Positions 30,553-58,325 of a stretch of DNA of 64,000 nt are shown here, one piece after another. Position 1 is the first letter of the stretch. The number at the start of each line of letters is the position of its first letter. A program made the translations under genes and the position numbers. The DNA lies in contig NZ_QGKM01000055.1 of NCBI RefSeq assembly GCF_003172875.1, positions 1-64,000 on the forward strand, written 5' to 3'. The DNA comes from Leucothrix pacifica. Lineage in GTDB: Bacteria; Pseudomonadota; Gammaproteobacteria; Thiotrichales; Thiotrichaceae. Under the pieces are notes generated by a model. The model was not told the origin of the DNA. It made no database searches and saw only the letters and a program-made list of their open reading frames with translations.

Positions 30553-30933
30553 ATGAAATATTACTGTCTCATTTTCCTATTACTTATTTCCTTCAATGTA
30601 AACGCCATTGCAGGATCAGTAGTAATGTTAGACATGTCCGTAATGGCGTCTAGCATGATGGAAGAAACGACAATGCAGAAAGAACACATGTCTGTTAGCA
30701 GTGGCCATGCAGAAATACTAAGTATATCGTCAGAGCACGGCCAATCACAAAACTCGCCAAATGATATTTGTGATGAACATCACAACTGTAGTGTTAACTG
30801 TAGTTCAGCAGCACTAATGACGGATATTTCCACTTTCAATGCCCCTCACCGACTCACCTTTGAATCGGATTATCATTTATGGCGTGCACCTAGTACCTAT
30901 TCACGCCTTTTAAGACCCCCCACCTTTGCCTGA
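30553..30933 (+). CDS. Small exported Met/His/Cys-rich protein, copper-island type (copy 1)
   Basis: About 126 residues. The signal peptide is MKYYCLIFLLLISFNVNAIA; the mature part is rich in Met, His and Cys (MLDMSVMASSMMEE, DEHHNCSVNCSSAALMTDI) and ends SRLLRPP. The ATG at 30553 starts the signal peptide; upstream in-frame codons look like non-coding DNA. A clear paralogue lies at 50594 in front of copA, with matching signal peptide, NCSSAAL/HCSAAL segment and C terminus. Its composition suggests periplasmic copper binding. No known function is assigned. Confidence 0.72.
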   Translation: MKYYCLIFLLLISFNVNAIAGSVVMLDMSVMASSMMEETTMQKEHMSVSSGHAEILSISSEHGQSQNSPNDICDEHHNCSVNCSSAALMTDISTFNAPHRLTFESDYHLWRAPSTYSRLLRPPTFA

Positions 30934-31096
30934 ATCTTCTAAGCACATTACGTCTATTTAAAAAACACGTTTTGGCTGCTTAAACTCGGTTACTCCTTAA
31001 TTTATGGCGCTTAAAAAAGCGTTAACACTAGGCACTATTTCGCCCTAAGTGTTTAATGAATTCACTGCCAATCTCAATAAAATATTTGAGTTCACT

Positions 31097-33148
31097 ATGA
31101 GAAACAAATCAACAGATAAATGTGTTGAAAATCCAAAACACCTTCAGTTTATACAAGACTTCGCTTCGGTTTTTAGATGGAGCCAAGTTCTTCTGCTGCT
31201 AGTGTTGTTGACCGTGGGTGTTTCTCATGCCCAATCATCGCCGGACAATCCATCACTCAACACTCTTCAATCTGTGTTAGGAGAAACACAACCTAATATT
31301 TCTAGCTCTTCACTGATAGCTAATGACACCGCTGGTTCTATGGGGCTTTTACAATCTGCCGGTTTTTTAGGATTTGGAGGAGGTTCGGATGATCAGGGAA
31401 TACTTCCACCCGATAAAGCCTATAGCGGAAGCGTTTCTTTGATCGGTGGGGAGCTGATAGAGGTCTTTTTTGCCATCAGGGATTGTTGTTATCTCTACAA
31501 GGATAAATTTACATTTGCGACTGATTCGGTTGGCCTGACGCTCGGGCAACCCAACTTTCCAGAAGGTAGCGACTATTCTGATGCTTTCTATGGCGACATG
31601 AAAATCTATCGGAAACAGGTGAGGATTACGATTCCAGTCTTTATCGAAAAAGGTCAAACGTCTCCGTTAATGCTTCGTGTTGGGTATCAAGGTTGTGCGG
31701 ATGTAGGTGTGTGTTATCCCCCCCAAAATAAAGTGTTCTCTGTTGATATTTCACCAAGTGGAATTAGCGATGAATCGGCGGCAAACAATCAAGCTGATGG
31801 TAAAAACTCTCCGTTAGGTTACGTGAGCGAACAAGATCGCCTGGCCAACTTTCTGGCGGCAAACGGCGTCTGGTCGTTACCACTTTTTTTCGTCTTAGGT
31901 GTGCTATTGGCTTTTACTCCGTGTGTTCTCCCCATGATCCCTATTCTATCCGGAATTATCACCGCCGATAAAGCCATTACCCAGGGAAAGGCATTTTCAT
32001 TATCCCTTGCTTATGTGTTGGCGATGGCGCTGACGTATTCGTTAATCGGTGTGTTAGCGGTTGCATCAGGTGCAAACCTGCAGGCAGTGTTCCAGCACCC
32101 TGCAGTACTGATAACGTTTAGTGCGTTGTTTGTGTTCTTATCACTTCCCATGTTCGGTGTTTTCGAGCTCCAGCTTCCTGTAGCTTGGCAGAACTGGCTG
32201 ACAAACATAAGTCAGCGCCAGCGGGGAGGTCAATTTATTGGCGTTTCTGTAATGGGCGGTTTGTCGGCACTGATTGTCGGGCCCTGTGTAGCTGCCCCCC
32301 TGATTGGCATATTGACCTACATCACACTGACAGGTGATATGGTTTTTGGAGGATTAACGTTATTTGTACTGGGATTGGGCATGGGCTTGCCATTGCTGGT
32401 TATCGGCACAACAGCGGGTCGATGGGTTCCCCGCGCTGGCCCTTGGATGCAGGTTGTAAAAGCTGGGTTCGGTGTTGGTCTTTTGGCGGTTGCTATTTGG
32501 TTACTAAGCCGAATTTTGCCGACCACTGTAAATATGTTGCTTTGGGCACTGTTGTTGTTAGGTGTAGCTTTCGCGCTAATGTATTTTGGACGAGCCACTA
32601 ACCGAAGCGTGATGCTTATCAGTAGCGCTACGAGCCTAATATCAATGTCTTTAGGAATAGCGCTAATTTGGAGTACGGCTTCAGGTGTGAATGATATCAA
32701 TCAACTCCTGTCATCCCTACCATTTAGAGCTGCGCCTCAAAACTCTCCAGGCTTCGTTGAAAAGCCTGCGTTTACACGGATTAAGTCCTCAGAAGAGCTT
32801 GATGCAAAGTTAAAAGCAGCAGGGCGGCTGAAAAAGCCTGTAATTTTGGACTTCTACGCAGATTGGTGTGTCAGTTGTATAGAAATGGAGCAAAGTACAT
32901 TTCACGATCCAGGCGTTGCCAAGTTGATGTCTCGTTTCACCCTGCTCCAAGCAGATGTGACCAAGAATGATGTAACAGACCAGGCACTGTTGAAACGTTT
33001 TGGCATATTTGGGCCACCAGCGATTCTCTTCTTTCCACCACAAGAAAATGAGATGCGACAATATCGCGCTGTTGGCTTCATGAACGCTAACGATTTCTCA
33101 GCACTGCTTACTACCGTTTTAAACACCAAAAGCATTTCAAATTTGTAG
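31097..33148 (+). CDS. dsbD: Thiol:disulfide interchange protein DsbD
   Basis: About 683 residues. Order: leader (1-54), periplasmic DsbD-alpha domain with the Cys pair in YQGCADVGVCYPP, an eight-helix membrane domain with active cysteines in FTPCVLPMIPILSG and VGPCVAAPLIGIL, and a C-terminal thioredoxin domain with CVSC in FYADWCVSCIEM. It carries electrons from cytoplasmic thioredoxin to the periplasm, keeping copper-handling thiols reduced. The first 25 residues resemble the Tat leader of the CopA oxidase at 51151, and the DNA upstream matches too, so the 5' end looks borrowed. The ATG at 31097 is used for this reason. Confidence 0.93.
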   Translation: MRNKSTDKCVENPKHLQFIQDFASVFRWSQVLLLLVLLTVGVSHAQSSPDNPSLNTLQSVLGETQPNISSSSLIANDTAGSMGLLQSAGFLGFGGGSDDQGILPPDKAYSGSVSLIGGELIEVFFAIRDCCYLYKDKFTFATDSVGLTLGQPNFPEGSDYSDAFYGDMKIYRKQVRITIPVFIEKGQTSPLMLRVGYQGCADVGVCYPPQNKVFSVDISPSGISDESAANNQADGKNSPLGYVSEQDRLANFLAANGVWSLPLFFVLGVLLAFTPCVLPMIPILSGIITADKAITQGKAFSLSLAYVLAMALTYSLIGVLAVASGANLQAVFQHPAVLITFSALFVFLSLPMFGVFELQLPVAWQNWLTNISQRQRGGQFIGVSVMGGLSALIVGPCVAAPLIGILTYITLTGDMVFGGLTLFVLGLGMGLPLLVIGTTAGRWVPRAGPWMQVVKAGFGVGLLAVAIWLLSRILPTTVNMLLWALLLLGVAFALMYFGRATNRSVMLISSATSLISMSLGIALIWSTASGVNDINQLLSSLPFRAAPQNSPGFVEKPAFTRIKSSEELDAKLKAAGRLKKPVILDFYADWCVSCIEMEQSTFHDPGVAKLMSRFTLLQADVTKNDVTDQALLKRFGIFGPPAILFFPPQENEMRQYRAVGFMNANDFSALLTTVLNTKSISNL

Positions 33149-33245: not shown

Positions 33246-33824
33246 ATGATTAACACTTTATACAAACGATACCTATTAGCATTTTCAATACTGTCAATCC
33301 TATTACTTTCAGGCTGTTCAGTCAGGTATGACAATGTGAAACTAGATCCAGATACTAAGCGGACTATATTTACTAAAATGGACACTAAGTCCGCTAAAGA
33401 AATAGCGGACGTTACCAAAGCTCTAATGAAACTGGGATCAAATATCGATCCTGCTGAAGCCAAACTATTGGCACATGAATCTGTAGGCTATCCTAAGGTT
33501 CTGGCCAATAAATACAAGTTGGTTAAACCGCCTTACTTACATAATGTACTGGTTAACTATGGTTATCGAGAAGATGGATTATGCTGGCAATGGACACGAG
33601 ATATGGCCAAACATATCCAGGCCCGAAATTGGAAAAGTTTTGATTTCTTTCATGGAACGGCTAATCGCAGACGCTTCAACGAGCACAATTCACTGGTTGT
33701 TACTGCCAAAGGAAAAGGCGTCCGAGAGGGTATGTTGCTAGATCCATGGAGAAATTCTGGCGAGCTTTATTGGAAAATGACTAAAGATGATCCTAAGTAC
33801 TATTGGACACGTTTCACGAACTAG
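33246..33824 (+). CDS. Lipoprotein of unknown function with a Cys-His-Asp pattern
   Basis: A 192-residue protein with a lipobox LLSG-C24, so probably lipid-anchored. The mature part has C113 (DGLCWQWTRDM), H147 (NEHNSLVVTAKG) and D166 (LLDPWRNSGELYW) in the order and spacing of papain-like/NlpC-P60 folds. I do not recognise a named family. It lies 97 bases after dsbD on the same strand. Its Cys would need a reducing supply such as DsbD. A peptidase or amidase activity is a guess from the pattern. Confidence 0.7.
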   Translation: MINTLYKRYLLAFSILSILLLSGCSVRYDNVKLDPDTKRTIFTKMDTKSAKEIADVTKALMKLGSNIDPAEAKLLAHESVGYPKVLANKYKLVKPPYLHNVLVNYGYREDGLCWQWTRDMAKHIQARNWKSFDFFHGTANRRRFNEHNSLVVTAKGKGVREGMLLDPWRNSGELYWKMTKDDPKYYWTRFTN

Positions 33825-33866: not shown

Positions 33867-34301
33867 ATGTTTTCTATTGGTTCACTCTCCAAAAAAACCG
33901 GTGTAAAAGTACCAACTATTCGATACTACGAACAAATCGGGTTGATTGATCCGGTGGTTCGCACCGAAGGAAATCAAAGACGCTACAGCAATACTGAGCT
34001 GGATCGACTATGTTTCATCCGACATGCACGAGATTTGGGGTTCTCAATTGAAGCGATTAGGAAATTAATTGAGCTTAGTCAGCTACCAGACAAAGTTTGT
34101 GCTGATGCAAATAAGATTGCTCACAAACAACTAATTCGAACCCAAGCTAGAATTGCCAGTTTACAGGGATTAGAAGCTGAATTGATAAGAATTACTAACC
34201 ACTGTAATGGTGATGGTCACATAAGCGAATGTTATGTTTTAAGTTCGTTAGCTGATCATGGGAAGTGCATTTCTGAGCATCGGGAAATGATAATTGAGTA
34301 A
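33867..34301 (+). CDS. MerR family metal-responsive regulator
   Basis: A 144-residue protein. The N-terminal MerR helix-turn-helix is SIGSLSKKTGVKVPTIRYYE, followed by a dimer coiled coil and a Cys/His-rich tail: C near 88 (KVCADANKIAHK), HCNGDGHISECYVLSSLADHGKC. It resembles the regulator at 38596 throughout (same Cys positions). The arrangement fits HmrR/PbrR-like sensors; the metal is not determined. The downstream target is probably the lspA gene, 145 bases on. Confidence 0.85.
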   Translation: MFSIGSLSKKTGVKVPTIRYYEQIGLIDPVVRTEGNQRRYSNTELDRLCFIRHARDLGFSIEAIRKLIELSQLPDKVCADANKIAHKQLIRTQARIASLQGLEAELIRITNHCNGDGHISECYVLSSLADHGKCISEHREMIIE

Positions 34302-34446: not shown

Positions 34447-34944
34447 ATGCTTAAGTGGATATGGGTTTCCATCGTAGTGCTTATACTGGACCAGCTCAGT
34501 AAGTGGATGGCTGTCGCTCATCTTGATGAGAGAGTACCTGAGGCTATTTTACCTCATCTAAATTTTACACTAGCCTACAATTATGGTGCAGCATTTAGCT
34601 TTCTAGGGGACCAAAGTGGCTGGCAACGTTGGTTTTTAGTTGTCATATCTTTTGTAGTCAGTGGTTACATCATTTACTGGCTAAGAAAACTGGATAAAAA
34701 CGAGTTTTGGACTGCTATTTCTCTGGCTTTAGTCTTGGGTGGCGCTCTTGGTAATGGGCTTGACAGATTAGTTAGTGGCAGAGTGACTGATTTTATTGAT
34801 CTTTACACCAATTTAGACGTGTTTTTCCTGAGCGATGGTCACTTTGCAATATTTAATGGTGCAGATATTGCGATTACCTTAGGCGCTATACTGCTAGTGG
34901 TTAACAGCTTTGCAACACCTGACGGCGCAGAACTGAGCAAGTAA
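34447..34944 (+). CDS. lspA: Lipoprotein signal peptidase II (copy 1)
   Basis: A 165-residue four-helix inner-membrane aspartic protease that removes prolipoprotein signal peptides. Catalytic Asp residues lie in GNGLDRLVSGRVTDFIDL; YNYGAAFSFLGD is also typical. It is very similar to the second copy at 41487. Housekeeping LspA normally lies in ileS-lspA operons, so both copies here are accessory. LspA homologues (PbrC) also occur in lead-resistance operons next to MerR genes. Confidence 0.93.
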   Translation: MLKWIWVSIVVLILDQLSKWMAVAHLDERVPEAILPHLNFTLAYNYGAAFSFLGDQSGWQRWFLVVISFVVSGYIIYWLRKLDKNEFWTAISLALVLGGALGNGLDRLVSGRVTDFIDLYTNLDVFFLSDGHFAIFNGADIAITLGAILLVVNSFATPDGAELSK

Positions 34945-34982: not shown

Positions 34983-35546
34983 ATCGAAACGTTTCTAGAT
35001 TTTATACGTGATTATGGCGTACTCAGCTATAGCCTTCTTTTTGCTTATTGTGCTTTGAAAAGTGGTGCACTTCCTTTGTTTGCGGGTTATGCAGCTCAAG
35101 CTGGCGCATTAGATGTGAGCTGGGTTGCAGCCTCAGTCTTTGCCGGTGGATATTTGGGGGATGAAGCACGCTTTTTCGCTATACGCCATTACGGAGCTGT
35201 TGCCATTGAATCACGACCTCGTTTTTCAAACGCTTTTAAAAAAGCGAAGAAGCTGTTTGATCGTTATGGTGTGGCCTATATTTTTTTGTATCGATACCCT
35301 AAAGGCTTACGCACTGTCGGTGCTTTGCCGATTGGCTTGACGAACATTTCCTGGCGTCGCTTCACGGCACTAAACGCAGCTTCTGCAGCACTTTGGACTT
35401 CTATATTGGTTGGTTCAGGGTATTTATTTGGTGAAAGCATAGGTTATGTTGTTAATGACAATTGGGGAGTGTTTAGCGTTGCCCTTCTGGGTATATTTCT
35501 ACTTCTATCTTTCATCGTTTGGCGACGTTTAGCAAAAATAGAATAA
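34983..35546 (+). CDS. DedA/SNARE-associated family membrane protein, start codon unclear
   Basis: The frame is open from 34962 and reads NIETFLDFIRDYGVLSYSLL before the first conventional start (TTG at 35055). Those residues look like a genuine DedA N-terminal helix, so the true start may be a rare ATC at 34983, which has AAAAAGGT eight bases upstream, or the start has been lost. The rest has the DedA signatures GGYLGDEARFFAIRHYG and YRYPKGLRTVGALPIG. The family moves phospholipids and is linked to membrane stress resistance. Confidence 0.72.
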   Translation: METFLDFIRDYGVLSYSLLFAYCALKSGALPLFAGYAAQAGALDVSWVAASVFAGGYLGDEARFFAIRHYGAVAIESRPRFSNAFKKAKKLFDRYGVAYIFLYRYPKGLRTVGALPIGLTNISWRRFTALNAASAALWTSILVGSGYLFGESIGYVVNDNWGVFSVALLGIFLLLSFIVWRRLAKIE

Positions 35547-35594: not shown

Positions 35595-36194
35595 ATGAAT
35601 AAATTACCCCATATCATCTCGATCATCGCCTTTATTGGCGGATTGGTTTTTGCTCAGCAATACTTCAGCAAGCACAAGCTGCCAGCTGGAAAACAAACCC
35701 CCATTGCTGGCAAAGAGTTTGGCGGCGAATTCACACTTCAACGCGAAGGTGGTAAACCCGTATCATTAAGTGATTTTAAAGATAATGTCGTGGTGCTGTA
35801 TTTTGGTTTTGCATCTTGCCCCGATGTCTGCCCGACCTCACTTGCAATTATTGGTTCGGCGATGAAAAGTTTATCCGCAGAAGAAGTTGCTGATGTGAAA
35901 GGGCTTTTTATCAGTCTGGACCCAGAGCGTGATACTGATGAGAATCTCAAGCAGTACGCTGAATATTTTCATGAAAACTTCAGTGGAATAACAGGAACGC
36001 TTGAACAAGTCGAAAGAGTAGCCAGACGCTATGGAACTTACTTTATTAAGGTTGCAGGTAGCTCCGAATCAAGTTACACAATTGATCACACTTCGGCAAC
36101 GTTCATTATAGGTAGAGACGGTAAATTTGTGGTTTCAAAAGCGCATGGTACACCAGCCGAAGAAATCACAGAAGCTATCCGAAGTGCCTTGTAA
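35595..36194 (+). CDS. SCO1/SenC family copper chaperone
   Basis: A 199-residue membrane-anchored thioredoxin-fold protein: N-terminal helix (IISIIAFIGGLVFA), copper site C75-x-x-x-C79 (FASCPDVCPTS) and H165 (IDHTSATF), plus DPERDT. SCO proteins deliver Cu to the CuA site of cytochrome oxidase or act as thiol reductases. A decayed copy lies at 38291-38573. Confidence 0.92.
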   Translation: MNKLPHIISIIAFIGGLVFAQQYFSKHKLPAGKQTPIAGKEFGGEFTLQREGGKPVSLSDFKDNVVVLYFGFASCPDVCPTSLAIIGSAMKSLSAEEVADVKGLFISLDPERDTDENLKQYAEYFHENFSGITGTLEQVERVARRYGTYFIKVAGSSESSYTIDHTSATFIIGRDGKFVVSKAHGTPAEEITEAIRSAL

Positions 36195-36413: not shown

Positions 36414-37298
36414 ATGAAAATATTAATAAGTTTTAATAACGTTACAATCTCTGTCGTTGCCATTCTTGTTCTAGCTGTTTATTCAGCAAAATCAGCGCAT
36501 GCTTCCCCTGTAAGCAGCTTGACTAGCTTTGCGAATCAAACCGCTTATTTTTCACCAACACAACCAACGATTGGCAATGTAAGCTACCAACAACCTAGTG
36601 CTGAAAGAGCCTCACTTGAGAGACTGATTCAAAATCTTGACCTTGATAATTCCTTTGGATATGCCCTCTCAAGCGCAGCGATTGAACGCACCACGCAAGG
36701 CGTTCGATACGATGGGAAATATATTAAAATTGCTTATCCTTGGGGGGATGTACCCGCATCTATTGGTGTGTGTACCGATGTTGTAATTCGTTCGTATCGT
36801 AGCTTAGGAATTGATCTGCAATCTGAAGTCTATAATGATATTAGTAAGGACTTTTATGCCTACCCTAGCTTCGCTGAGTGGGGGCTGAAACAGCCCGATC
36901 CAAACATCGATCATCGCCGTGTTTATAATTTGCAGGCGTTTTTTACACGTCATAAGGCTGAGTTGCCGCGCTCACTAGACCCACTTGATTATAAACCGGG
37001 TGATTTAGTAACTTGGATGGTAGGTCCAAATTTTCCGCATATTGGTGTTGTAGTAAATATACCCTCAGCATCTGATCCAAATCGTTTTATGATTTCCCAT
37101 AACATCGGTGAGGGTCCTAAAATTGAAGACATTTTATTCCGATTCCCGATAACAGGGCACTATCGTTATACACCTGAGCATCGTAAAGTAAACCCAGCAC
37201 TATATTTTGCTAAAACACCTCCTCCTGAAAAGAGAAGGTATCGGGAAATGAGCGATGAGGAGCTCGTCCTCGCAAGTCAATACCTTGAAGGATTGTAA
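36414..37298 (+). CDS. Exported DUF1287 protein (YijF-like)
   Basis: A 294-residue protein with an N-terminal signal/anchor (ISVVAILVLAVYSAKSAHAS). The DUF1287 core spans about residues 85-265: YPWGDVPASIGVCTDVVIR, PNIDHRRVYNLQAFF, YKPGDLVTWMV, FPHIGVVV, ISHNIGEGPKIED, ITGHYRY. The conserved Cys in GVCTDVV and the His residues suggest an NlpC/P60-like hydrolase; activity is unproven. A 45-residue N-terminal linker and a charged C-terminal tail (PPPEKRRYREMSDEE) extend beyond the domain. Confidence 0.85.
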   Translation: MKILISFNNVTISVVAILVLAVYSAKSAHASPVSSLTSFANQTAYFSPTQPTIGNVSYQQPSAERASLERLIQNLDLDNSFGYALSSAAIERTTQGVRYDGKYIKIAYPWGDVPASIGVCTDVVIRSYRSLGIDLQSEVYNDISKDFYAYPSFAEWGLKQPDPNIDHRRVYNLQAFFTRHKAELPRSLDPLDYKPGDLVTWMVGPNFPHIGVVVNIPSASDPNRFMISHNIGEGPKIEDILFRFPITGHYRYTPEHRKVNPALYFAKTPPPEKRRYREMSDEELVLASQYLEGL

Positions 37299-37608: not shown

Positions 37609-38067
37609 ATGAAATACTACTTAACGTGTCTATTTTTCGTGCTTCTGAACAATACTGTATTAGCAGAGCCCTATAAGGTTGGAGATTTAATCGTAGACTC
37701 GCCATACGCCCGAAGTACCCCCCCTTTAGCATCTGTCGGCGGCGGTTTTATGACAATTATTAATAATGGTTCAGAAGATGATACCCTCATATCGGGAGAG
37801 ACCACATTTTCAGAAGCATTTGAAATACATGAGGTGTCAATGGCTGATGGGGTGATGAAAATGGCTGAATTGGACGGGGGTCTACTTGTTCCAGCAGGGG
37901 AAACAGTAGAGCTTAAGCCAGGTTCCTACCACCTGATGTTTGTTACGTTAACTGAGCAGCTAAAGCCTGAAGAACGTCGTAAAGCAACTTTAGTGTTTAA
38001 GAAAGCGGGCGAAGTAGAAGTTGAATTTGTAGTGAGGGATATTTTGAAAATGAATCATTCAGAATAA
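37609..38067 (+). CDS. PCuAC-type periplasmic copper chaperone
   Basis: A 152-residue protein with signal peptide 1-19 (CLFFVLLNNTVLAEP) and a cupredoxin-like PCuAC fold. The Cu(I) motif H-M...H-x-M is represented by EIHEVSMADGVMKM and YHLMF. It hands copper to SCO and cytochrome oxidase in other bacteria. Lies between two SCO-type loci, one functional and one decayed. Confidence 0.9.
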   Translation: MKYYLTCLFFVLLNNTVLAEPYKVGDLIVDSPYARSTPPLASVGGGFMTIINNGSEDDTLISGETTFSEAFEIHEVSMADGVMKMAELDGGLLVPAGETVELKPGSYHLMFVTLTEQLKPEERRKATLVFKKAGEVEVEFVVRDILKMNHSE

Positions 38068-38595: not shown

Positions 38596-39012
38596 TCAAT
38601 GGTCTTTTTCGCATAATTCATGATCTGCCAAAGCTGCTAACACATAGCAGCTTTGGCTCGTTCCCTCCCCGCTACACCCCTTAACAATCCTCGCTAACTC
38701 TTTCTCCAATGAACGCAACTGTTTAATTCTTCTTCGTACATCTAATAGCTGTTCATTAGCGATATCAGTTGCTTCTTTGCAAGACTTCTCCGGAGACTCT
38801 TGTAGCTGAATCAATGACTCAATCGCTTGAATCGTAAACCCCAGATCACGTGCATGCTTAACAAACCGGAGCCTTTCAAGCGCAGCAACATCGTATCGTC
38901 GTTGATGACCTTGAGTTCGCTCAGGTTCAGTTAGCACTCCGATCTCTTCGTAATAGCGAATGGTTGTTACTTTCACTCCCGTGTTTTTTGATAATTGCCC
39001 TATCGAGTACAT
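38596..39012 (-). CDS. MerR family metal-responsive regulator (divergent from CDF exporter)
   Basis: A 138-residue protein with helix-turn-helix SIGQLSKNTGVKVTTIRYYE and metal-site candidates KSCKEATDIAN and GCSGEGTSQSCYVLAALADHELC. Same Cys layout as the regulator at 33867. It faces the cation exporter gene across 69 bases holding a MerR-type promoter, so it most likely activates that gene when metal is bound. Confidence 0.87.
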   Translation of the reverse strand: MYSIGQLSKNTGVKVTTIRYYEEIGVLTEPERTQGHQRRYDVAALERLRFVKHARDLGFTIQAIESLIQLQESPEKSCKEATDIANEQLLDVRRRIKQLRSLEKELARIVKGCSGEGTSQSCYVLAALADHELCEKDH

Positions 39013-39018
39013 TTCTTC

Positions 39019-49977: not shown

Positions 49978-50395
49978 TACTACCTCCGGTTTCACTCATT
50001 GATTCAATCAAGTGACAAATACTGTGGCCATCAGGCGTACCATCAGGCATTGCTTCCCATTTAACGACCGCCCTCTCCATCCTTTGCTGTAATTGCTGCA
50101 ATTCCTCGATACGACGACGATTCTCCAAAATATGTTGCTGAATAATTTCTCGAACGTCCGTGCACGGTGACTCCCCCATTTGAGCGTTTTCCAGAATTTG
50201 GCGGATTTCATTTAGGGTGAATCCCAGCATCTTGGCGGTTCTTATGAACCGTAATCGGGATACTTCTGTTGAAGAAAATAAGCTATAACTATTTTCGGGC
50301 TGCTTATTGGGGACTAACAAGCCTTCACGAACGTAATAACGCACGGTATGTGCGCTAACTCCAGTCTTCTTAGCTATCTCGCCGACGGTCAGCAT
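49967..50395 (-). CDS. cueR: MerR family copper-type regulator (CueR/HmrR-like)
   Basis: A 142-residue protein with helix-turn-helix [20 protein letters not shown] and a dimer helix carrying [13 protein letters not shown], then [15 protein letters not shown]. The C-terminal Cys pattern differs from the E. coli CueR loop; this group accompanies copper ATPases. It precedes and overlaps the ATPase gene, so it activates its own operon from the promoter at 50429-50460. Confidence 0.85.
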
Positions 50396-50593: not shown

Positions 50594-50992
50594 ATGTGCC
50601 GCATGATACGTCAATTACTTATTTTTCTATTGCTGATCTCCTTCAATGCGAACGCCATTGCAGGGTCAGTCATGATGCTCAACATGTCTTCAATGACATC
50701 GGGCATGATGGATAATAAGTCTGAAATGACAAGTCACCCTATGTCTGAAAGTAAATCTCAAACGTTCATGTCAGACATGCCGATGAATCACTGCGAACCC
50801 CAAAAATCAGCAGACTCCAATTGTGGAGACGATAACGACTGCGGATTTTGTATGGTGCATTGTAGTGCTGCGCTCATCAGCGATATCGAAGTACTTGGTG
50901 ATACTTCTCAGTTTAGCTTTAAACCGAGATACCAGGTGGAAGATATAATCAGCAAACAGTCCCGCCTGCTAAGACCGCCCAAACTCACCTGA
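50594..50992 (+). CDS. Small exported Met/His/Cys-rich protein, copper-island type (copy 2)
   Basis: About 132 residues. The hydrophobic signal IRQLLIFLLLISFNANAIA is followed by a Met-rich stretch (MMLNMSSMTSGMMDN) and a Cys cluster (NCGDDNDCGFCMVHCSAAL), ending SRLLRPP. Paralogue of the protein at 30553. The ATG at 50594 or 50603 gives the best signal peptide. Directly upstream of copA, so probably a periplasmic copper-binding peptide in the same transcript. Confidence 0.72.
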   Translation: MCRMIRQLLIFLLLISFNANAIAGSVMMLNMSSMTSGMMDNKSEMTSHPMSESKSQTFMSDMPMNHCEPQKSADSNCGDDNDCGFCMVHCSAALISDIEVLGDTSQFSFKPRYQVEDIISKQSRLLRPPKLT

Positions 50993-51150
50993 ATCCCCTC
51001 TGGCACATCACGTTTATCTAATCGTGTACTGCTGCCCTATTGATTACCTCTATATGAACGATGCTGCTTGCAGTATTAGGCACCACTCTATTTAACGTTT
51101 GGTCTGCCACTCTATGGGTAATCTCGATAAAAATTTTATTTGGATTCAGT

Positions 51151-52875
51151 ATGAAAAATCACTCAAGTAATGACCGTGTTGCTAACCCAACACGCCGTCA
51201 ATTTGTGCAAGGACTAACAGCCTCTGCTTTTCTGGCAGGTCTTGCACCTTCTAACTTATTTGCAGCGGCTGGCAATCAACAAGTGCTCAGTGGAAATACT
51301 TTCGAGTTAACACTGGGAGAGACCGTCGTCAATTTCACAGGAAGGCGTCGCATGGCGACGACTATCAACGGCTCACTACCCGGGCCAACTTTGCGAATGA
51401 AAGAAGGTGAAGAAATCACCATACGGGTGACTAACACAATGTCAGTCACCTCATCTATTCATTGGCATGGATTGATTTTACCCGCCAACATGGACGGTGT
51501 TCCTGGCCTTAGTTTTGCAGGCATTAAGCCTGGTGAAACTTTCACCTACCAGTTCAAAGCCGTACAAAGTGGCACCTATTGGTACCACAGTCACTCTGGT
51601 TATCAAGAACAAACCGGTCTCTATGGGTCGATTGTCATTGAACCGCGTGAAACAGATGTAGTGAGCTATGACCGTGATTACGTTGTGTTGTTATCTGATT
51701 GGTCTGATGAGAAGCCTGAACAAATTTACGCCAAGCTCAAAAAGCTCAGTCATTACTACAACACCAAAGAGCGTACTCTAGGCGATCTCGCAAAAGAGGC
51801 ATCCGCAAAGGGATTTACTAAAGCCATTGATGACCGGGAAATGTGGAATCGAATGCGCATGAGTGACCGCGATATCTCCGATGTCACGGGTTGGACATAC
51901 ACATTCCTTGCCAACGGAAAAACACCTGCCGAAGGGTGGACAGGTGTATTCAAACCGGGGGAAAAAGTGCGCCTACGCTTTGTCAATGCTGCTGCGATGA
52001 CCTTCTTTGATGTACGTATTCCCGGGTTAAAAATGCAAGTAGTCGCAACAGATGGCCAAGATATTCAACCTGTTAACGATATTGACGAATTCCGGATTGG
52101 TGTCGCAGAAACATATGATGTGATCGTTGAACCACGTGCGGGGGCTTACACTATTTTCTCTCAGGCCATTGATCGGTCAGGCTACGCCAGAGGTACATTA
52201 ACAAGCAACACTGCTTTACCGACAGATATTCCGAAGATGGATCCAGTGCCTGTTTTGACCCACACCGATATGGGCATGGGGAGCATGGATGGGATGGATC
52301 ACTCCTCCATGGGAGGAATGGCTCATGACATGGCTGGTATGGATCATGGATCAATGGAAAGTACTGGAGGAGTACAGGTGAAACGTGGGCCTCAGGTAGA
52401 TATGGTCGCCATGAACCCTCAGGTGAGACTCGATGACCCTGGTGTTGGTCTGAGAAATAATGGTCGCAGGGTACTTACTTATGCAGATATAAAAAACCGT
52501 TACCCAACCAAAGATACTCGTCCACCTAGTCGGGAAATCGAGCTTCATTTAACCGGCAATATGAGCCGCTACATGTGGTCATTCAATGGTGTTAAATATG
52601 CTGATTCTAAACCAATCGGATTACGTTTCGGCGAACGTGTTCGCTTTACGCTGATCAACGATACGATGATGAACCATCCAGTGCACCTACATGGCATGTG
52701 GAGTGAATTAGAGTCAGGCGATAATAATTATCTCCCCAGAAAGCACACGATAGTCGTTCAGCCTGGCGCCAAAATTAGTTACTTAGTCACCGCTGACGCT
52801 ATGGGGCAATGGGCTTACCACTGCCATTTGATATATCACATGGACGGCATGTTCCGTCGAGTTATTGTGGCTTAA
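51151..52875 (+). CDS. copA: CopA-type multicopper oxidase, Tat-exported
   Basis: A 574-residue periplasmic oxidase. Tat motif R15-R16-Q-F (TRRQFVQ), three cupredoxin domains, and copper motifs HWHG (104-107), HSHSG, HPVHLHG and HCHLIYHMDGM. A Met/His-rich insert (MGMGSMDGMDHSSMGGMAHD) typical of PcoA/CopA precedes domain 3. It oxidises Cu(I) and sequesters copper. The ATG at 51151 begins the Tat leader; 30 upstream in-frame codons are probably untranslated. Carries the same family symbol as, but is unrelated to, the ATPase. Confidence 0.95.
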   Translation: MKNHSSNDRVANPTRRQFVQGLTASAFLAGLAPSNLFAAAGNQQVLSGNTFELTLGETVVNFTGRRRMATTINGSLPGPTLRMKEGEEITIRVTNTMSVTSSIHWHGLILPANMDGVPGLSFAGIKPGETFTYQFKAVQSGTYWYHSHSGYQEQTGLYGSIVIEPRETDVVSYDRDYVVLLSDWSDEKPEQIYAKLKKLSHYYNTKERTLGDLAKEASAKGFTKAIDDREMWNRMRMSDRDISDVTGWTYTFLANGKTPAEGWTGVFKPGEKVRLRFVNAAAMTFFDVRIPGLKMQVVATDGQDIQPVNDIDEFRIGVAETYDVIVEPRAGAYTIFSQAIDRSGYARGTLTSNTALPTDIPKMDPVPVLTHTDMGMGSMDGMDHSSMGGMAHDMAGMDHGSMESTGGVQVKRGPQVDMVAMNPQVRLDDPGVGLRNNGRRVLTYADIKNRYPTKDTRPPSREIELHLTGNMSRYMWSFNGVKYADSKPIGLRFGERVRFTLINDTMMNHPVHLHGMWSELESGDNNYLPRKHTIVVQPGAKISYLVTADAMGQWAYHCHLIYHMDGMFRRVIVA

Positions 52876-52889
52876 AGGGAGACTTAGCG

Positions 52890-53924
52890 ATGAAAAAAAC
52901 AATATCTGTCATGGTACTGGGTTTATGCATTTCACCTGCAGCCTTTGCCAAACACAAACCGATGACCATGGACTGTTCGCAGCCGATGCACGCAAAAATG
53001 ACCTTTTGCAAGGACTTGGCTGCAAAAGAAGCTAAGAAAAAACCGATGGCAATGGATCACTCATCGATGCCCACACCCGTCAAAAAAGAGACTGTTGGCA
53101 AAATGGATCACTCAAAGATGGATCATTCAAGGATGAACCATGCCACTGCAGCAACTAAGAAAAAAGCAGCAGCTAAAGTTGATCATTCCAAAATGAACCA
53201 TGCCGCTATGCCTGAGATGAAAATTCCGGTCAGTGATGGCTCATTGTCTGAGGATGTACCAATGCCATTTCCCGGTGCAATGCACATGGAGGATGACCCG
53301 ACTCTCTTCAAGTTAATGGTTGATTCACTAGAGTATCAATACACCGATAGCAGTAACGACTCACTAGCGCTAGATGCGGAGGCGTGGGTAGGCAAGGATC
53401 TTCATAAACTTTGGTTTAAAACAGACGTAGAGTCATCAGATGGCAAGCTTGAAGAGGCCGAACTCCAAGCGCTGTATAGCCGGGGAATAGATCCTTATTG
53501 GGACTTTCAGGTTGGTATTCGTAAAGATTTTGAGCCGGTAGGAAGAGAGTGGGCCGTCGTCGGTCTTAAAGGAACAGCACCGTATATGTTTGATGTAGAC
53601 GCGGCCTTATTTTTTGGAAAAGGAGGACAGGTAGGCGCCCGTTTAAAAGCAGAGTACGAAATGATGCTCACCCAAAAAACGGTCCTAGCACCATCATTAG
53701 GCGTCAACTTATATACCAAAGATGACCTTGAAGCAGGTATCGGTTCGGGAATGTCTGATCTCGGCTTATCACTGCGATTAAAGCATGAATTCAAACGAGA
53801 GTTTGCACCCTACATTGGAGTTAGCTGGTCCAAGTCTTTTGGAGGTACCGCCGACATTTTAGAAGAAGAAGGAGAAGAAACATCTGATACAAAACTACTA
53901 CTAGGCTTTGAGGCTTGGTTTTAA
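52890..53924 (+). CDS. copB: Outer-membrane copper resistance protein CopB
   Basis: A 344-residue protein with a signal peptide ending ISPAAFAKH, then a periplasmic tail with repeated Met-Asp-His-Ser units (MDHSSM, KMDHSKMDHSRMNH, VDHSKMNH) that bind copper, then a CopB beta-barrel of about 210 residues ending in a terminal aromatic (FEAWF). The ATG at 52890 has GGGAGA upstream, 14 bases past the copA stop; the longer frame starts inside copA. Confidence 0.94.
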   Translation: MKKTISVMVLGLCISPAAFAKHKPMTMDCSQPMHAKMTFCKDLAAKEAKKKPMAMDHSSMPTPVKKETVGKMDHSKMDHSRMNHATAATKKKAAAKVDHSKMNHAAMPEMKIPVSDGSLSEDVPMPFPGAMHMEDDPTLFKLMVDSLEYQYTDSSNDSLALDAEAWVGKDLHKLWFKTDVESSDGKLEEAELQALYSRGIDPYWDFQVGIRKDFEPVGREWAVVGLKGTAPYMFDVDAALFFGKGGQVGARLKAEYEMMLTQKTVLAPSLGVNLYTKDDLEAGIGSGMSDLGLSLRLKHEFKREFAPYIGVSWSKSFGGTADILEEEGEETSDTKLLLGFEAWF

Positions 53925-53958
53925 TCACACTTAATACAAAATAGAAAGGATATACACA

Positions 53959-54354
53959 ATGAAACTCTTAAAGACAATCATGATTGCTGGTTTGCTAACA
54001 GTGAGTACTGCTGCACTTGCTCATACCGGAATAAAATCGACCTACCCTGCTAATGAGCAAATGCTGGAAGCAGCTCCACAGCAGTTAACTCTTAACTTTG
54101 GCGCACCTGTACGATTGATGAAAGTGATCTTGATGGATGGTGATCACAAAGACCTGAAGATTGGTTTCAAACCTGGTGCAGAGGCAGGCACATCTTTCAA
54201 AATTGCCGTACCAGAAATCGAAGTTGGCGAATACATGGTGAGTTGGGTATCTATGGGTAAAGATGGTCACAAAATGTCTGGCGACTTCAGTTTCATGGTC
54301 CACGGTGAAGGCATGAGCCATGATGACGGGCACGATGATGATCACGCCACCTAA
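53959..54354 (+). CDS. copC: Periplasmic copper-binding protein CopC
   Basis: A 131-residue protein with signal peptide 1-21 (TVSTAALA-HTG), so the mature protein begins with the Cu(II)-binding His, as in CopC. Cupredoxin-like fold with HKMSGDFSFMV. It ends in a His/Asp-rich tail (SHDDGHDDDHAT). The DNA after the stop keeps coding for similar His/Asp triplets, suggesting the tail has been shortened by a recent mutation. Confidence 0.92.
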   Translation: MKLLKTIMIAGLLTVSTAALAHTGIKSTYPANEQMLEAAPQQLTLNFGAPVRLMKVILMDGDHKDLKIGFKPGAEAGTSFKIAVPEIEVGEYMVSWVSMGKDGHKMSGDFSFMVHGEGMSHDDGHDDDHAT

Positions 54355-54444
54355 CACAAAGGTGAGCACAAAGACGATGGTCACTAACAATTAATGCTGC
54401 GCGCGGAGCTGTTTCGACACTCCGCGCTTTATAAGGATGAAATA

Positions 54445-55329
54445 ATGACCGACCTATCACCTTGGTTAATCGCAACTTTTAGTAGCAAGCTACTGCTTTA
54501 TATCGCTTATGCCATGTCTATTGGTGGTATCGCGGCGACCTTTATGATTCAGCGGTACAAGCCCCAGCATTTACCTTTTCTTAGTTACACCCAATGGGGA
54601 GTCTTACTTGGTTTGTGCTTTTCAAGCTTAGATTTTTTTGTGCAGGTGGGCTCGTTTTCAGAGTCGGGCTTAGCTGGTATGTGGGATCCGATGTACATTG
54701 ACATTCTCTGGCAGTCCAGTGCTGGCTTAAGCTACAAACTTCGACTTGCCGGCTGGTTTGGGCTACTGTTTCTAGTACTGGCCATGCGGTTAAATGCCAC
54801 TCATGCAAAACCACTCTCCCTAATGGCGCTGCTCGTATCCCTTCTAATCGCAGCGTCATTTAGTATGGTCGGGCATACCGCAGAACAAGCGATCTGGGTC
54901 AGGCTAGCGCTTGTCTTACACATATTTATCGCAATGTGGTGGATTGGCTTACTACTCCCACTAACTCATTGGTGTAAAGAATTTCCGGCTAATACCTTGC
55001 AACAACTCATGCATGAATTTGGAAAACAGGCGTCAATATTAGTGTCATTGCTGCTGATGGCAGGTGTTGGTATTTCTTATGCGCTGGAAGGCGACTTCAA
55101 GACACTATTTAACAGTGTGCATGGCAATACTTTATTACTAAAACTCGGTGTGGTTGCCTTAATCTTATCACTGGCAGCACTCCACAAATTTAGACTAGTT
55201 CCTAACATAAAAAATCAGCAGTCCGCTTTAGCATTACGTGCTTCCATTCAGATAGAAATGAGAATCGCATTGTTAATTTTAATCATTACCGCGGTGCTCA
55301 GTACATTAGTTGGGCCATCACATCTTTAA
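54445..55329 (+). CDS. copD: Inner-membrane copper protein CopD
   Basis: About 294 residues and eight membrane helices with the CopD pattern; His residues occur in helices (SMVGHTAEQAIW, LVLHIFIAMWWIGLLLP). Partner of CopC in moving copper into or across the inner membrane. The ATG at 54445 has AAGGATG upstream. Confidence 0.9.
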   Translation: MTDLSPWLIATFSSKLLLYIAYAMSIGGIAATFMIQRYKPQHLPFLSYTQWGVLLGLCFSSLDFFVQVGSFSESGLAGMWDPMYIDILWQSSAGLSYKLRLAGWFGLLFLVLAMRLNATHAKPLSLMALLVSLLIAASFSMVGHTAEQAIWVRLALVLHIFIAMWWIGLLLPLTHWCKEFPANTLQQLMHEFGKQASILVSLLLMAGVGISYALEGDFKTLFNSVHGNTLLLKLGVVALILSLAALHKFRLVPNIKNQQSALALRASIQIEMRIALLILIITAVLSTLVGPSHL

Positions 55330-55340
55330 AGGAAAATATT

Positions 55341-55895
55341 ATGGAAAATAAAACATACATAACAACTATTTCAGTGCTACTAATCAGTATCGCTGTTAGT
55401 GCTTTTATTTTAGCTAAGTTAGTTAATGCCGATACCGGAAAACTTGCAGATATGGCAGCTATTCAAACTGACGATGCTGTTAAAACTGAAAAAACACCCG
55501 CAGCAGAAATACCCAAAACCCTACCATTAGTCACTGTTTATAAAAGCGCTACTTGTGGCTGTTGCTCAGCATGGATTGATCACATGAAAGATAACGGATT
55601 CCCTGTTGAAGCACATAATTCTGAAAACCTTAAAGAGTACAAAGTCAAAGCAAAACTAGGTGCTGGCTTAGGGTCATGTCATACCGCATTTGTCGGTGAC
55701 TACGCGATCGAGGGACATGTCCCTGCCGATGATGTAAAGCGACTACTCACCGAGAAACCTGATATTTCAGGTTTGACGGCTCCCGGTATGCCGATGAATT
55801 CACCTGGAATGGCCGTTAAAGGCAGTAAACCCTCGGCCTATGATGTGATTAGCTTTAAAGATGGGAACACGGTTGGTGTATTTAGCCAATATTAA
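55341..55895 (+). CDS. DUF411 metal-binding protein
   Basis: A 184-residue exported or anchored protein (hydrophobic residues 8-27). The DUF411 domain has a Cys cluster SATCGCCSAWIDHM and GSCHTAFVGDYAIEGHVPADDV. An added Met/Pro-rich loop (GMPMNSPGMAVKG) follows. DUF411 proteins are frequent in copper operons and are thought to bind copper in the periplasm. Eleven bases after copD. Confidence 0.88.
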   Translation: MENKTYITTISVLLISIAVSAFILAKLVNADTGKLADMAAIQTDDAVKTEKTPAAEIPKTLPLVTVYKSATCGCCSAWIDHMKDNGFPVEAHNSENLKEYKVKAKLGAGLGSCHTAFVGDYAIEGHVPADDVKRLLTEKPDISGLTAPGMPMNSPGMAVKGSKPSAYDVISFKDGNTVGVFSQY

Positions 55896-55925
55896 TCTCA
55901 AGTACTTATAATTAGCGCCCTTATT

Positions 55926-56372
55926 ATGAACAAAACATTACCTAACTTCTTATTGATAAGCTCGTTGGCTTTGATCTTTTTAGCAGGTTGTTCTCAAGAC
56001 AAATCAAATGAACCCGTTTCAGGTCGTTGGTATACGCCAAACCAACTAGCCTTAGGAAAAACTATCTTTGCCGACAACTGTGCAGCCTGTCATGGCACCA
56101 ACGCACAAAGCATACCGAATTGGCAGCAGTCTCTTGCTGATGGTAGCTACCCGCCACCGCCACTAAATGGTTCTGCCCATGCATGGCATCACCCACTGAA
56201 CCTATTAGTGAGGACTATCGAAGAAGGCGGCGCTGCGGTGGGAGGAAAGATGCCAGCCTTCAAAAATGTGCTTAATAAACAAGAACAGCTTGCCGCTATT
56301 GCATTCTTCCAAAGCTATTGGGACGACCGTATATATCAAATCTGGAAAGAAAATGGCGGTTTGACTAAGTAA
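55926..56372 (+). CDS. Lipoprotein c-type cytochrome
   Basis: A 148-residue protein with lipobox FLAG-C22 and one heme site CAACH; the likely Met ligand is in GKMPAFKNVL. Located between DUF411 and a multicopper oxidase, it could pass electrons to or from the oxidase during Cu(I) oxidation. The role is an inference; family assignment is clear. Confidence 0.88.
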   Translation: MNKTLPNFLLISSLALIFLAGCSQDKSNEPVSGRWYTPNQLALGKTIFADNCAACHGTNAQSIPNWQQSLADGSYPPPPLNGSAHAWHHPLNLLVRTIEEGGAAVGGKMPAFKNVLNKQEQLAAIAFFQSYWDDRIYQIWKENGGLTK

Positions 56373-56463
56373 TGTGTACTTATATTTAGTTCACTTCATT
56401 GATGGATAAGCTTACCCTTAATCAGCGTTAAGGATAAATCAGGCAACCCGTGGGAAAGAAATT

Positions 56464-57957
56464 ATGAAAAACAAAACAAACTTCGCAAAGAGCAAAGTAA
56501 GTAGTCGTCGTCGATTTATTAAATCCCTGACTGCAATCAACTTGCTTCCTTTCATTATGTCAACGACAGTTAATGCTGATAGTACCAAGCCTGTTAGGAG
56601 TACAAATACTTTTGCAGTACCACCTCTGGCCTCAGGTAAGCGTAGTGGCAAGACTGTTAATTTTAATTTGAAACTTGGCGTGTCTCAGACTCAGTTCTTC
56701 AAGGGTGTTAATACCGCAACACTTGGGATCAACCAAAGCTATCTCGGTCCAGTGCTTAGAGCCAAACGAGGTGACAAGGTTCGTATCACTGTTGAGAATC
56801 AAATTGGTGTCGGCTCAACCTTGCATTGGCACGGCATGATGCTCCCCGCCAGCATGGATGGAGGACCTCATCAGGAAATCAAGAATGGTGAAAGCTGGGT
56901 ATCAGAATATGAAATCAAGCAAGAAGCCAGTACATTGTGGTATCACTCTCACCAAATGCATCAAACTGGTGCACAGGTCTACTATGGATTAGCCGGACTT
57001 TTTATTCTTGATGACGACGACAGTCATCAACTGGGATTACCACACGAATACGGTGTCGATGATATTCCTTGTACCATTCAGGATCGTCGCTTTAAACGGG
57101 ATGGTAACCTAAGTTACATAGACTCAATGCACGATCGAATGATGGGTATGGAGGGGAACACTATTTTAGTCAATGGCGTTGTAACTCCAGTACTAAAAGC
57201 CCAGCGTTCGTTGCTACGGTTAAGATTACACAATGGCTCAAATGCACGAACTTATCAGCTAGCCTTTAGTGATGAGCGCAGTTTTCAGGTTATTGCGAGT
57301 GATGGTGGTTTTTTAGCAGCGCCAGTAACCGTCAAGTCATTACGACTTGCAGTTGGAGAACGTATAGAAGTACTCGTAGATGTATCTGATAGAAAAGTCG
57401 TTCAACTACAAAGCCAACAGTCTTCCGGTGGTGGCATGATGAGAATGATGAGTGGTGGAAGTGAACCCTTTACAGTAATGACAATTGATGCCAAACAGGT
57501 AAAAGAATCAGCTCATACTATACCCAAGACATTACGGGCCATGAAGGCTATCCCTGATCCTAAAGACGCCATTAAAACTCGTCAATTTGACCTACAGATG
57601 GGTATGGGAATGATGGGAGGCGGTTTTCGTATTAACGGTAAAAGCATGGATATTTCCCGTATCGATTTCGAAGTAAAGCGCAATAGTACTGAAATTTGGG
57701 AGGTCCGAAACGACTCACCAATGGCACACCCGTTTCATGTGCATAATGTACAGTTTCACATCCTAGATCGAAATGGAAAGAAGCCAACACAAATTGAGTC
57801 AGGCCTGAAAGATACGGTATTAGTGCAGAGAGGTGAAGTGGTTCGAATCATTATGACCTTCCCTGAGTACTCCGATTCCAAAATTCCTTATATGTACCAC
57901 TGTCATATTCTGGAACACGAAGATCAAGGAATGATGGGGCAATTTGTTGTGGTGTGA
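56464..57957 (+). CDS. Multicopper oxidase (CueO/bilirubin-oxidase-like), Tat-exported
   Basis: A 497-residue protein. Tat motif SRRRFIKS (14-21). Copper motifs HWHGMM, HSHQMH, HPFHVHNVQF and HCHILEHEDQGMM. Two Met-rich stretches (GGGMMRMMSGG and MGMGMMGGGF) may form a cuprous site as in CueO. Different subfamily from the CopA oxidase at 51151. AAGAAA-type site before the ATG; last plus-strand gene of the copper operon. Confidence 0.93.
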   Translation: MKNKTNFAKSKVSSRRRFIKSLTAINLLPFIMSTTVNADSTKPVRSTNTFAVPPLASGKRSGKTVNFNLKLGVSQTQFFKGVNTATLGINQSYLGPVLRAKRGDKVRITVENQIGVGSTLHWHGMMLPASMDGGPHQEIKNGESWVSEYEIKQEASTLWYHSHQMHQTGAQVYYGLAGLFILDDDDSHQLGLPHEYGVDDIPCTIQDRRFKRDGNLSYIDSMHDRMMGMEGNTILVNGVVTPVLKAQRSLLRLRLHNGSNARTYQLAFSDERSFQVIASDGGFLAAPVTVKSLRLAVGERIEVLVDVSDRKVVQLQSQQSSGGGMMRMMSGGSEPFTVMTIDAKQVKESAHTIPKTLRAMKAIPDPKDAIKTRQFDLQMGMGMMGGGFRINGKSMDISRIDFEVKRNSTEIWEVRNDSPMAHPFHVHNVQFHILDRNGKKPTQIESGLKDTVLVQRGEVVRIIMTFPEYSDSKIPYMYHCHILEHEDQGMMGQFVVV

Positions 57958-58184
57958 GCGACTTACCACTGGTGGATATAGCTTGTTTCTCATAATTTAC
58001 CCACTATGAAACATTTTATTAAAACACTAGCAGAGGGAGTAATTGTAGTATCGGTTCTTTTTACCCCGCTCTGAGTTGTACGCGAATGACAATATTTAGA
58101 ACTACGAGTGCTTTCTTCCTGTTTTCGCTTTGTAAATGATTGCTTGGTAAGCTGAATCTATTGTCATGGTTTTAAACGGGCTAA
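57958..58184. other. Intergenic stretch after the second oxidase
   Basis: No intact gene. A frame at 58006 begins like a secreted protein (MKHFIKTLAEGVIVVSVLFT) but stops after 22 codons. Otherwise AT-rich DNA. Confidence 0.35.
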
Positions 58185-58325
58185 TTATTTTTTTTCAATG
58201 GTAGGACATTAGTCCGTTTAACAATTAATGGATGAGCAGAGGTATTGTGTTTGCGGAACTCATGATGAAAGTTGGAGCCAATCGATCCGATGTAACCAAT
58301 GACATTTCCTTGTGCATCACCAAGT
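58185..58325 (-). pseudogene. C-terminal fragment of an M23 peptidase
   Basis: The minus-strand frame reads GDAQGNVIGYIGSIGS, then NFHHEFRKHNTSAHPL, and aligns with the end of the M23 protein at 44569 (AQGDVIGYVGSTGLATGPNLHYEFRKNN). The ATG-P part is missing and the rest of the gene is gone. It joins the end of the HlyD-like gene directly, so it marks a deletion or recombination scar. Confidence 0.78.

Follow-up and report, generated by a model that had tools for sequence, protein, structure and literature searches.

Extra copies of lipoprotein-maturation and disulfide-handling genes in a mixed copper and divalent-metal island of Leucothrix pacifica

The bacterial lipoprotein pathway is usually served by single housekeeping genes for signal peptidase II (LspA) and apolipoprotein N-acyltransferase (Lnt), and the Scs (suppressor of copper sensitivity) system, in which DsbD/DsbA-type proteins are tied to copper tolerance, is not known to include lipoprotein-maturation genes. 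Here, we describe a genomic island of Leucothrix pacifica in which two lspA genes, one lnt gene, and a set of dsb and peptidoglycan genes stand among metal exporters and chaperones. It occupies the right-hand part of the window, by which we mean the whole 64-kb stretch analysed (assembly GCF_003172875.1, contig NZ_QGKM01000055.1, positions 1 to 64,000). The island DsbD scores as an ordinary DsbD (604 bits, cut-off 330), with no ScsB model among its matches, and may differ from Scs proteins.

The closest described systems are the lit2-lgt2 copper elements of Listeria and Enterococcus, in which copper induces lit2, and lit2 shares a transcript with lgt2 and genes for copper resistance (PMC8275575); a first-pass annotation of this DNA had pointed to Listeria lit2 as a parallel, and the available text of that paper makes it an apt one. 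Both are mobile-type elements that combine copper-resistance genes with second lipoprotein-modification enzymes, whereas the present island is Gram-negative, features LspA and Lnt in place of the Lit/Lgt2 pair, contains Dsb, M23, and SCO genes in addition, and carries enzymes of the ordinary housekeeping type that were captured several times; no island protein scanned against protein-family models was named Lit, and no search aimed at Lit was made. The pbr operon with PbrC (PMC3431237, PMC1526738) resembles it in its MerR-family regulator, its 19-bp-spacer promoter, and an exporter followed by an LspA homologue, but in the island a CDF exporter and not the PbrA P-type ATPase lies next to the promoter, LspA has no PbrB fusion, and lnt, dsb, and M23 genes are added. 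Mobile cadmium/zinc units of the Tn6018 type likewise pair cadR with lspA, and the available text of PMC6863613 describes no lnt or Dsb for them. Finally, the copper-resistance cut loci of E. coli, discussed with Cpx, include lnt (as cutE) and nlpE, and lipoprotein maturation is a copper target there (PMC6538781), although the E. coli case concerns chromosomal housekeeping and stress sensing and the island an acquired extra copy. Parts of the picture are thus already known, namely lit2/lgt2, the effects of copper on lipoproteins, and Zn-induced signal peptidase II, while no description of the combined Gram-negative module was found in titles and abstract openings of the open-access papers listed in our searches.

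The reading that we favor, at a probability of about 0.58, is that this mobile-looking mixed-metal island provides a metal-induced extra dosage of ordinary envelope-building enzymes and not metal-proof variants. Thiophilic metals in the periplasm would bind lipobox, Dsb, and other thiols and so slow lipoprotein maturation and disulfide handling; beside the exporters, the island would offer extra ordinary enzymes (LspA twice, Lnt, DsbD, DsbB, DsbA, an M23 endopeptidase, and copper-chaperone/oxidase-assembly factors); a MerR-type regulator would raise expression of the series CDF-DsbB-DsbA-(ICMT)-LspA2-...-M23-Lnt; and the normal enzymes would restore capacity by dosage while the pumps lower the metal. 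The observations behind it are the gene content, the accessory status and intact motifs of the copies, their recurrence beside metal genes, their repeated capture, and a MerR-type promoter in three loci.

Accessory copies of ordinary enzymes

The envelope and copper genes named by the first-pass annotation are present, with LspA1, LspA2, Lnt, and DsbD exceeding curated cut-offs and the PEMT, DedA/VTT, DUF1287, and M23 matches passing Pfam cut-offs, while DsbB (102 versus 124) and the ICMT model (22 versus 160) fall short. Its term "copper island" needs widening: the copper genes are real, but the island is a mixed copper/divalent-metal one (CadR/PbrR-type), as the lnt-bearing run is headed by a regulator of the MerR family, followed by a CDF transporter.

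The genome holds three lspA genes, one beside ileS on contig C113 and two in the island, and two lnt genes, one on contig C67 behind phoH-ybeY-corC and one in the island, together with four DsbD_TM loci. The annotation had named as fatal to its idea the case that these were the genome's only lspA and lnt genes, and this is not so; the housekeeping copies at ileS and phoH-ybeY-corC rule out the island genes as sole copies. Such extra copies are rare: at least two lspA matches occur in 19 of 370 same-class genomes (counting G312, where both matches lie by ileS, and G344, where the second is partial), and at least two lnt matches in 16/370 (counting G307 and G360, in each of which contig breaks seem to have divided a single gene, and G212, whose second match is under the family cut-off).

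A Glu-Lys-Cys triad is catalytic in Lnt, and Asp motifs are catalytic in LspA. The island Lnt keeps the triad (E271-K332-C383), which is the same in 21 island/plasmid Lnts of our tree, both LspA1 and LspA2 retain the Asp motifs, and DsbA, DsbB, and DsbD retain CxxC. Cysteine-free or cysteine-poor island enzymes are ruled out, as the island Lnt has five cysteines versus three in the housekeeping Lnt and LspA1, LspA2, and the housekeeping LspA have none. Because the triad, Asp motifs, and CxxC are kept and the island Lnt has no fewer cysteines, dosage is favored over metal-proof variants, and the annotation's proposal that resistant variants replace copper-sensitive enzymes loses its footing, given that the island Lnt keeps its catalytic cysteine and the LspA copies have none to lose. 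Metal-resistant isoenzymes standing in for copper-poisoned housekeeping Lnt and Dsb would fit accessory copies on metal islands and the block that copper places on lipoprotein maturation (PMC6538781, available text), yet the triad shared by the island/plasmid Lnts, the window copy without cysteine loss, the CxxC kept in all three Dsb proteins, and the scatter of island Lnts outside any one specialised clade (below) make this improbable.

Recurrence beside metal genes and repeated capture

Such copies were expected beside metal-resistance genes elsewhere, and they are found there. We called a locus metal-linked when a segment no longer than 20 kb contained at least two metal marker classes (tblastn E<=1e-6), with markers taken from the window and loci L012, L094, and L096 (window markers alone give identical counts). 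By this rule, 10 of 49 lnt/lspA loci without housekeeping neighbors were metal-linked, compared with 0/58 loci with them and 0/12 random windows (Fisher p=2.3e-4 for loci that are not independent, since the islands of G153 and G247 are almost identical, the CDFs of G187, G141, and G133 likewise, and several loci are near-copies or come from one genome); the 49 do not count the island itself and include probable housekeeping copies in altered context (e.g., L172, L259, and L260). Per genome, extra copies with metal linkage are present in 4/14 multi-lnt genomes (L. pacifica, G153, G241, and G247; 3/13 without L. pacifica) and in 7/19 multi-lspA genomes (L. pacifica, G091, G133, G141, G153, G187, and G247; 6/18 without it). 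Frequent companions of the extra lnt/lspA genes are Dsb, SCO, PCuAC, M23, and DUF411 genes.

Two side observations concern these genomes. In G091, a MerR-CDF-DUF3703-LspA-DsbB-DsbA-SCO cassette is present twice (L257 and L258). Divergent second Lnts, about 23-29% identical to the window Lnt, also occur (L127-L129, L145, L147, L151, L155, L192, L193, L195, and L196); none is metal-linked by the two-class rule, L128 having one RND match and L129 one DUF411 match.

On plasmids, 293 records match Lnt, and among 18 regions hand-picked for variety (omitting records >1 Mb, Rhodococcus, Streptomyces, Deinococcus, and most repeated Pseudosulfitobacter records), 14 were metal-linked as read from the annotation, one of them by metal chaperones and a ZIP transporter with no exporter in view. 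CadR-CDF with lnt and lspA occurs on Pseudomonas, Halomonas, Vibrio, and Stutzerimonas plasmids; Roseobacter-group plasmids carry SCO-DsbB-DsbA-PCuAC-SCO-M23-DUF411-ZIP-lspA-lnt; Tabrizicola and Microvirga plasmids carry rearranged sets (that of Microvirga with an ICMT-like gene and M23); the lnt region of the Psychrobacter P11G5 plasmid is metal-linked; and the 29.8-kb plasmid of Psychrobacter sp. M13 (L093, L284) combines lgt, lspA, lnt, a Ccm/DsbE block, CHAP, DUF411, CadR, and a heavy-metal ATPase. Starting in reverse from the island DsbB, all five plasmid regions viewed (of 273 records) were metal-linked and three of them hold lgt or lspA; a Pseudomonas shirazica plasmid has the CDF-DsbB-DsbA-ICMT core of the window with no lspA or lnt in view. 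One metal-unit LspA used as query matched 1168 of 72,556 plasmid records at E<=1e-5, a number that includes pbr-type genes, Gram-positive, and whole-chromosome records. On a Sphingobium plasmid (L097), another of the 18 regions, lnt adjoins a DsbA gene in a sulfur-metabolism/ArsR region without a clear metal exporter.

Three of the 18 plasmid lnt regions are ordinary chromosomal blocks, as would be expected if housekeeping genes were passively swept onto mobile elements without benefit, but the same functions are captured repeatedly beside metal genes, with motifs intact and housekeeping neighbors gone, and we give hitch-hiking very little credence. A wider claim, which we hold at even odds, is that Gram-negative metal elements repeatedly assemble a mobile "envelope maintenance" module under metal-sensing MerR regulators, made up of extra Lgt/LspA/Lnt, Dsb, M23, L,D-transpeptidase, CHAP, and cytochrome c/oxidase assembly enzymes.

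In the Lnt tree, the window Lnt clusters (100/99) with an island Lnt of Cocleimonas and with an Lnt that adjoins a CDF gene in G423, and this cluster nests among the housekeeping Lnts of the window's own genus. The Cocleimonas island Lnt is 70% identical to the window Lnt and is surrounded by DsbB, DsbA, HupE, DUF1007, DUF3703, CDF, and MerR genes, whereas the Cocleimonas housekeeping Lnt is only 43% identical. Because the three Lnts nest in this way and the Cocleimonas housekeeping copy is so distant, a housekeeping lnt gene of this Leucothrix-type genus was captured and moved across genera. Among the metal-associated rows, L186 has that label from a single CDF gene on a contig of 3.3 kb. Other metal-island Lnts are scattered in the tree, with starred branches forcing at least five label changes; one metal-specific Lnt family was rejected as a single clade (approximately unbiased test p=6.2e-7, rows used). 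The 32 "housekeeping" rows include some without phoH/ybeY/corC in the fetched context (L017, L018, L148, L150, L204, and L205), and L097, L137, L142, and L187 were left out of the tree for unclear role, long branch, or being a fragment. L187, on contig C60 of G423, is an additional piece of an Lnt gene that closely matches the housekeeping Lnt of G423, possibly assembly redundancy.

LspA1 and LspA2 fall within the other LspA of the genus, apart from one another, among rows of which those from L206-L220 were labeled housekeeping solely as the single lspA match of their genome. Elsewhere, 22 "metal-island" LspA rows, L233 and L253 without metal markers, cluster together with modest support (88/66, not starred), with the window's two LspA outside. 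Other bacteria have gathered the same kinds of gene independently, which suggests that metal resistance includes keeping surface-building steps running.

Island layout, regulation, and the weighing of explanations

Guanine-cytosine (GC) content is 0.47-0.52 across 4-28 kb of the window and 0.40-0.48 from 28 kb onward, the chromosomal stretch giving way to the lower-GC region at about 28-29.5 kb, and a tyrosine recombinase sits at 29.5 kb. A first gene run on the forward strand (30.5-38.1 kb) leads from a Met/His/Cys peptide through dsbD, a lipoprotein, MerR, lspA1, DedA, SCO, and DUF1287 to PCu(A)C, and a second (39.1-47.7 kb, forward) from CDF through dsbB, dsbA, an ICMT-like gene, lspA2, a HupE-like pair, DUF1007, DUF3703, and M23 to lnt; downstream follow a CopA-type ATPase with a MerR regulator, the CopA oxidase, CopB, CopD, a CueO-like oxidase, and an RND pump. 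The features are as follows.

29524..30132 (+), tyrosine recombinase (phage integrase family), island left edge; PF00589 E=6e-18
30553..30933 (+), small exported Met/His/Cys peptide ending LLRPPTFA, directly 5' of dsbD; from sequence, no significant Pfam family
31049..33148 (+), dsbD, full-length protein-disulfide reductase with CVSC; PRK00293 604 bits, cut-off 330
33246..33824 (+), lipoprotein, lipobox LSGC; no Pfam family
33867..34301 (+), MerR-family metal regulator 1; best model CadR-PbrR, 106 bits, under cut-off 151; 80% to the MerR adjoining the same CDF in Cocleimonas
34447..34944 (+), lspA1, accessory signal peptidase II; TIGR00077 123.6 bits, cut-off 73.95; 75.6% to housekeeping LspA
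35055..35546 (+), DedA/VTT membrane protein; PF09335 44.7 bits, above Pfam cut-off
35595..36194 (+), SCO1/SenC copper chaperone-like protein; PF02630 E=1e-40, above Pfam cut-off
36414..37298 (+), DUF1287 exported protein; PF06940 E=1e-59, above Pfam cut-off
37609..38067 (+), PCu(A)C copper chaperone; PF04314 E=2.6e-34, above Pfam cut-off
38596..39012 (-), MerR-family metal regulator 2, divergent from CDF; MerR and CadR-PbrR models match, all under cut-off
39019..39049 (+), MerR-type promoter, TTGAAC / 19-bp spacer with imperfect dyad / TACACT
39082..39714 (+), CDF cation exporter; TIGR01297 84.3 bits, cut-off 82.35
39707..40141 (+), DsbB-like disulfide oxidoreductase (CTLC); NF002849 102 bits, under cut-off 124
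40138..40836 (+), DsbA-like thioredoxin (CEAC); Thioredoxin_4/DSBA, PF13462 E=8.4e-22
40852..41409 (+), ICMT/PEMT-like membrane methyltransferase; PEMT PF04191 52.3 bits, cut-off 25; ICMT model 22 bits, cut-off 160
41463..41987 (+), lspA2, accessory signal peptidase II; TIGR00077 127.4 bits, cut-off 73.95; 79.4% to housekeeping LspA
42125..43317 (+), HupE/UreJ-like pair; second gene weak PF04955 under cut-off, first without NCBIfam family and its name inferred
43301..43951 (+), DUF1007 protein; PF06226
44084..44467 (+), DUF3703 protein; PF12487 E=8e-37
44569..46098 (+), M23 peptidoglycan endopeptidase (Shy/MepM-like); PF01551 E=4.5e-33; ShyC model 246 bits, under cut-off 700
46180..47727 (+), lnt, accessory apolipoprotein N-acyltransferase; TIGR00546 301.8 bits, cut-off 132.9, profile 1-394/395
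47731..49995 (-), CopA-type copper P-type ATPase; TIGR01511 605 bits, cut-off 397
49967..50395 (-), MerR-family regulator 3, whose gene overlaps that of the ATPase
50594..50992 (+), second small Met/His/Cys peptide ending LLRPPKLT, 5' of the multicopper oxidase; weak DUF2946 E=0.033, under cut-off
51061..52875 (+), CopA multicopper oxidase; TIGR01480 830 bits, cut-off 479
52809..57957 (+), CopB, CopC-like, CopD, DUF411-like, cytochrome c lipoprotein, and CueO-like oxidase; Pfam matches for CopB, CopD, and cytochrome c, names of CopC and DUF411 from sequence; oxidase scores highest with a CueO model, 462 bits, under cut-off 525
58317..62996 (-), membrane-fusion and RND pump genes flanking a DUF2282 peptide; Pfam matches for the fusion protein and DUF2282, pump named from sequence

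The island suggests a mobile element in its make-up, with copper genes and an integrase together and the same Lnt clade in another genus's island. An empty integration site was sought via the left-flank TRAP protein in six other same-genus genomes, where the best match was 38%, that is, no close relative.

Between MerR regulator 2 and the CDF gene, the promoter at 39019-39049 has the 19-bp-spacer layout described for metal MerR regulators (PMC1526738, PMC3431237, available text), and the same layout stands before CDF in Cocleimonas (TTGAAG-19 bp-TATACT) and G423 (TTGAAG-19 bp-TAGACT, with a perfect dyad CTCTAG-TGA-CTAGAG). The pattern has one match in the window with 0.01 expected and no further site there, although it was built from these sites and only their likeness counts. 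The promoter at 39019 is the nearest one to lnt and stands in front of a CDF exporter, and no regulator passed a metal-specific cut-off, so that copper is only a candidate inducer of lnt. From CDF to lnt all genes lie on the same strand with gaps of -17 to 137 bp (mechanical start codons), and the run is probably co-transcribed; its metal induction and dosage role would follow the mechanism outlined above. A terminator scan gave 17 sites versus 17.5 in shuffles, no excess.

Two alternatives turn on the proteins in this list. In the first, the sole task of the additional LspA and Lnt is to process the island's own lipoproteins, made in quantity under metal stress; lipobox proteins are indeed encoded at 33246 and 55926 (the lipoprotein and the cytochrome c), and the Cocleimonas island PCuAC and DUF1287 proteins begin like lipoproteins, yet these two are the only convincing lipoboxes in 32 island proteins scanned and compact CadR-CDF-lspA-lnt units have no annotated lipoprotein, which leaves such dedicated processing a minority prospect, though one to be taken seriously. 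In the second, LspA has a PbrC-like Pb/Cd role, a signal peptidase aiding a phosphatase or other partner to trap metal in the periplasm, and lnt merely came along. CadR/PbrR-type regulators and exporters do accompany lspA, and PbrC is discussed in this way in the available text of PMC3431237 and PMC3668242; LspA1 (165 aa) and LspA2 (174 aa) are stand-alone proteins without a PbrB part, however, and lnt, lgt, Dsb, and M23 would stay unexplained, so that we consider this role most unlikely.

For extra dosage of ordinary enzymes, the published record offers several points of contact. In the available text of the papers concerned, copper impairs lipoprotein maturation/acylation in E. coli (PMC6538781); non-native disulfides arise under copper, which also inhibits LD-transpeptidases and the maturation of lipoproteins (PMC9302775), and the recurring modules carry additional genes for all three processes, with no L,D-transpeptidase among the genes named in the window; and a signal peptidase II gene was >3-fold up with Zn in two Mesorhizobium isolates (PMC3668242).

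Several points weigh against it. The copper effect in E. coli resembles Lgt loss or depletion, not Lnt loss (PMC6538781, available text), and the island has no lgt, the genome's one lgt gene lying on another contig. LspA is without cysteine, so its direct thiol poisoning is unlikely, and the pbr model, as given in the available text of PMC3431237, assigns PbrC no role in lead resistance. A separate promoter for lnt is possible, given gaps of 101-137 bp in the CDF-to-lnt run and a promoter-like site at 44516-44543; the Cocleimonas lnt and CDF genes are on opposite strands, so a CDF-lnt operon is not conserved there; and neither MerR regulator 2 nor any other island regulator reached a metal-specific cut-off. 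Lastly, 39/49 non-housekeeping loci showed no metal linkage, so that additional lnt and lspA copies have other uses as well.

The repeated capture of LspA/Lnt with Dsb and peptidoglycan enzymes lends natural-selection support to the view that copper-like metals disturb lipoprotein maturation, LD-transpeptidases, and disulfide handling, and these natural gene sets make the first envelope step struck by metals directly testable. If Gram-negative metal elements do repeatedly assemble an "envelope maintenance" module, failure of lipoprotein maturation and thiol handling would be a main target of Cu/Cd-type metals in vivo, with resistance evolving by spare ordinary enzymes besides pumps. Extra LspA copies could also matter for LspA-directed drugs.

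Small peptides of the island

The peptides at 30553-30933 and 50594-50992 are alike in being exported, rich in Met/His/Cys, and having LLRPP near the end, and a similar peptide occurs in L013; we take the two to be possible copper-sensing leaders of the CopL/DUF2946 kind. The DUF2282 peptide (PF10048) lies at 59574-59873 on the reverse strand of the window, and outside the window, an MbnB/TglH-type enzyme for ribosomally synthesised and post-translationally modified peptides (PF05114) and a DUF2063 protein are encoded at L158 14727-16396. Together, the DUF2282 peptide, the MbnB/TglH-type enzyme, and the DUF2063 protein look like a copper-binding "bufferin" set, here divided by the RND pump genes.

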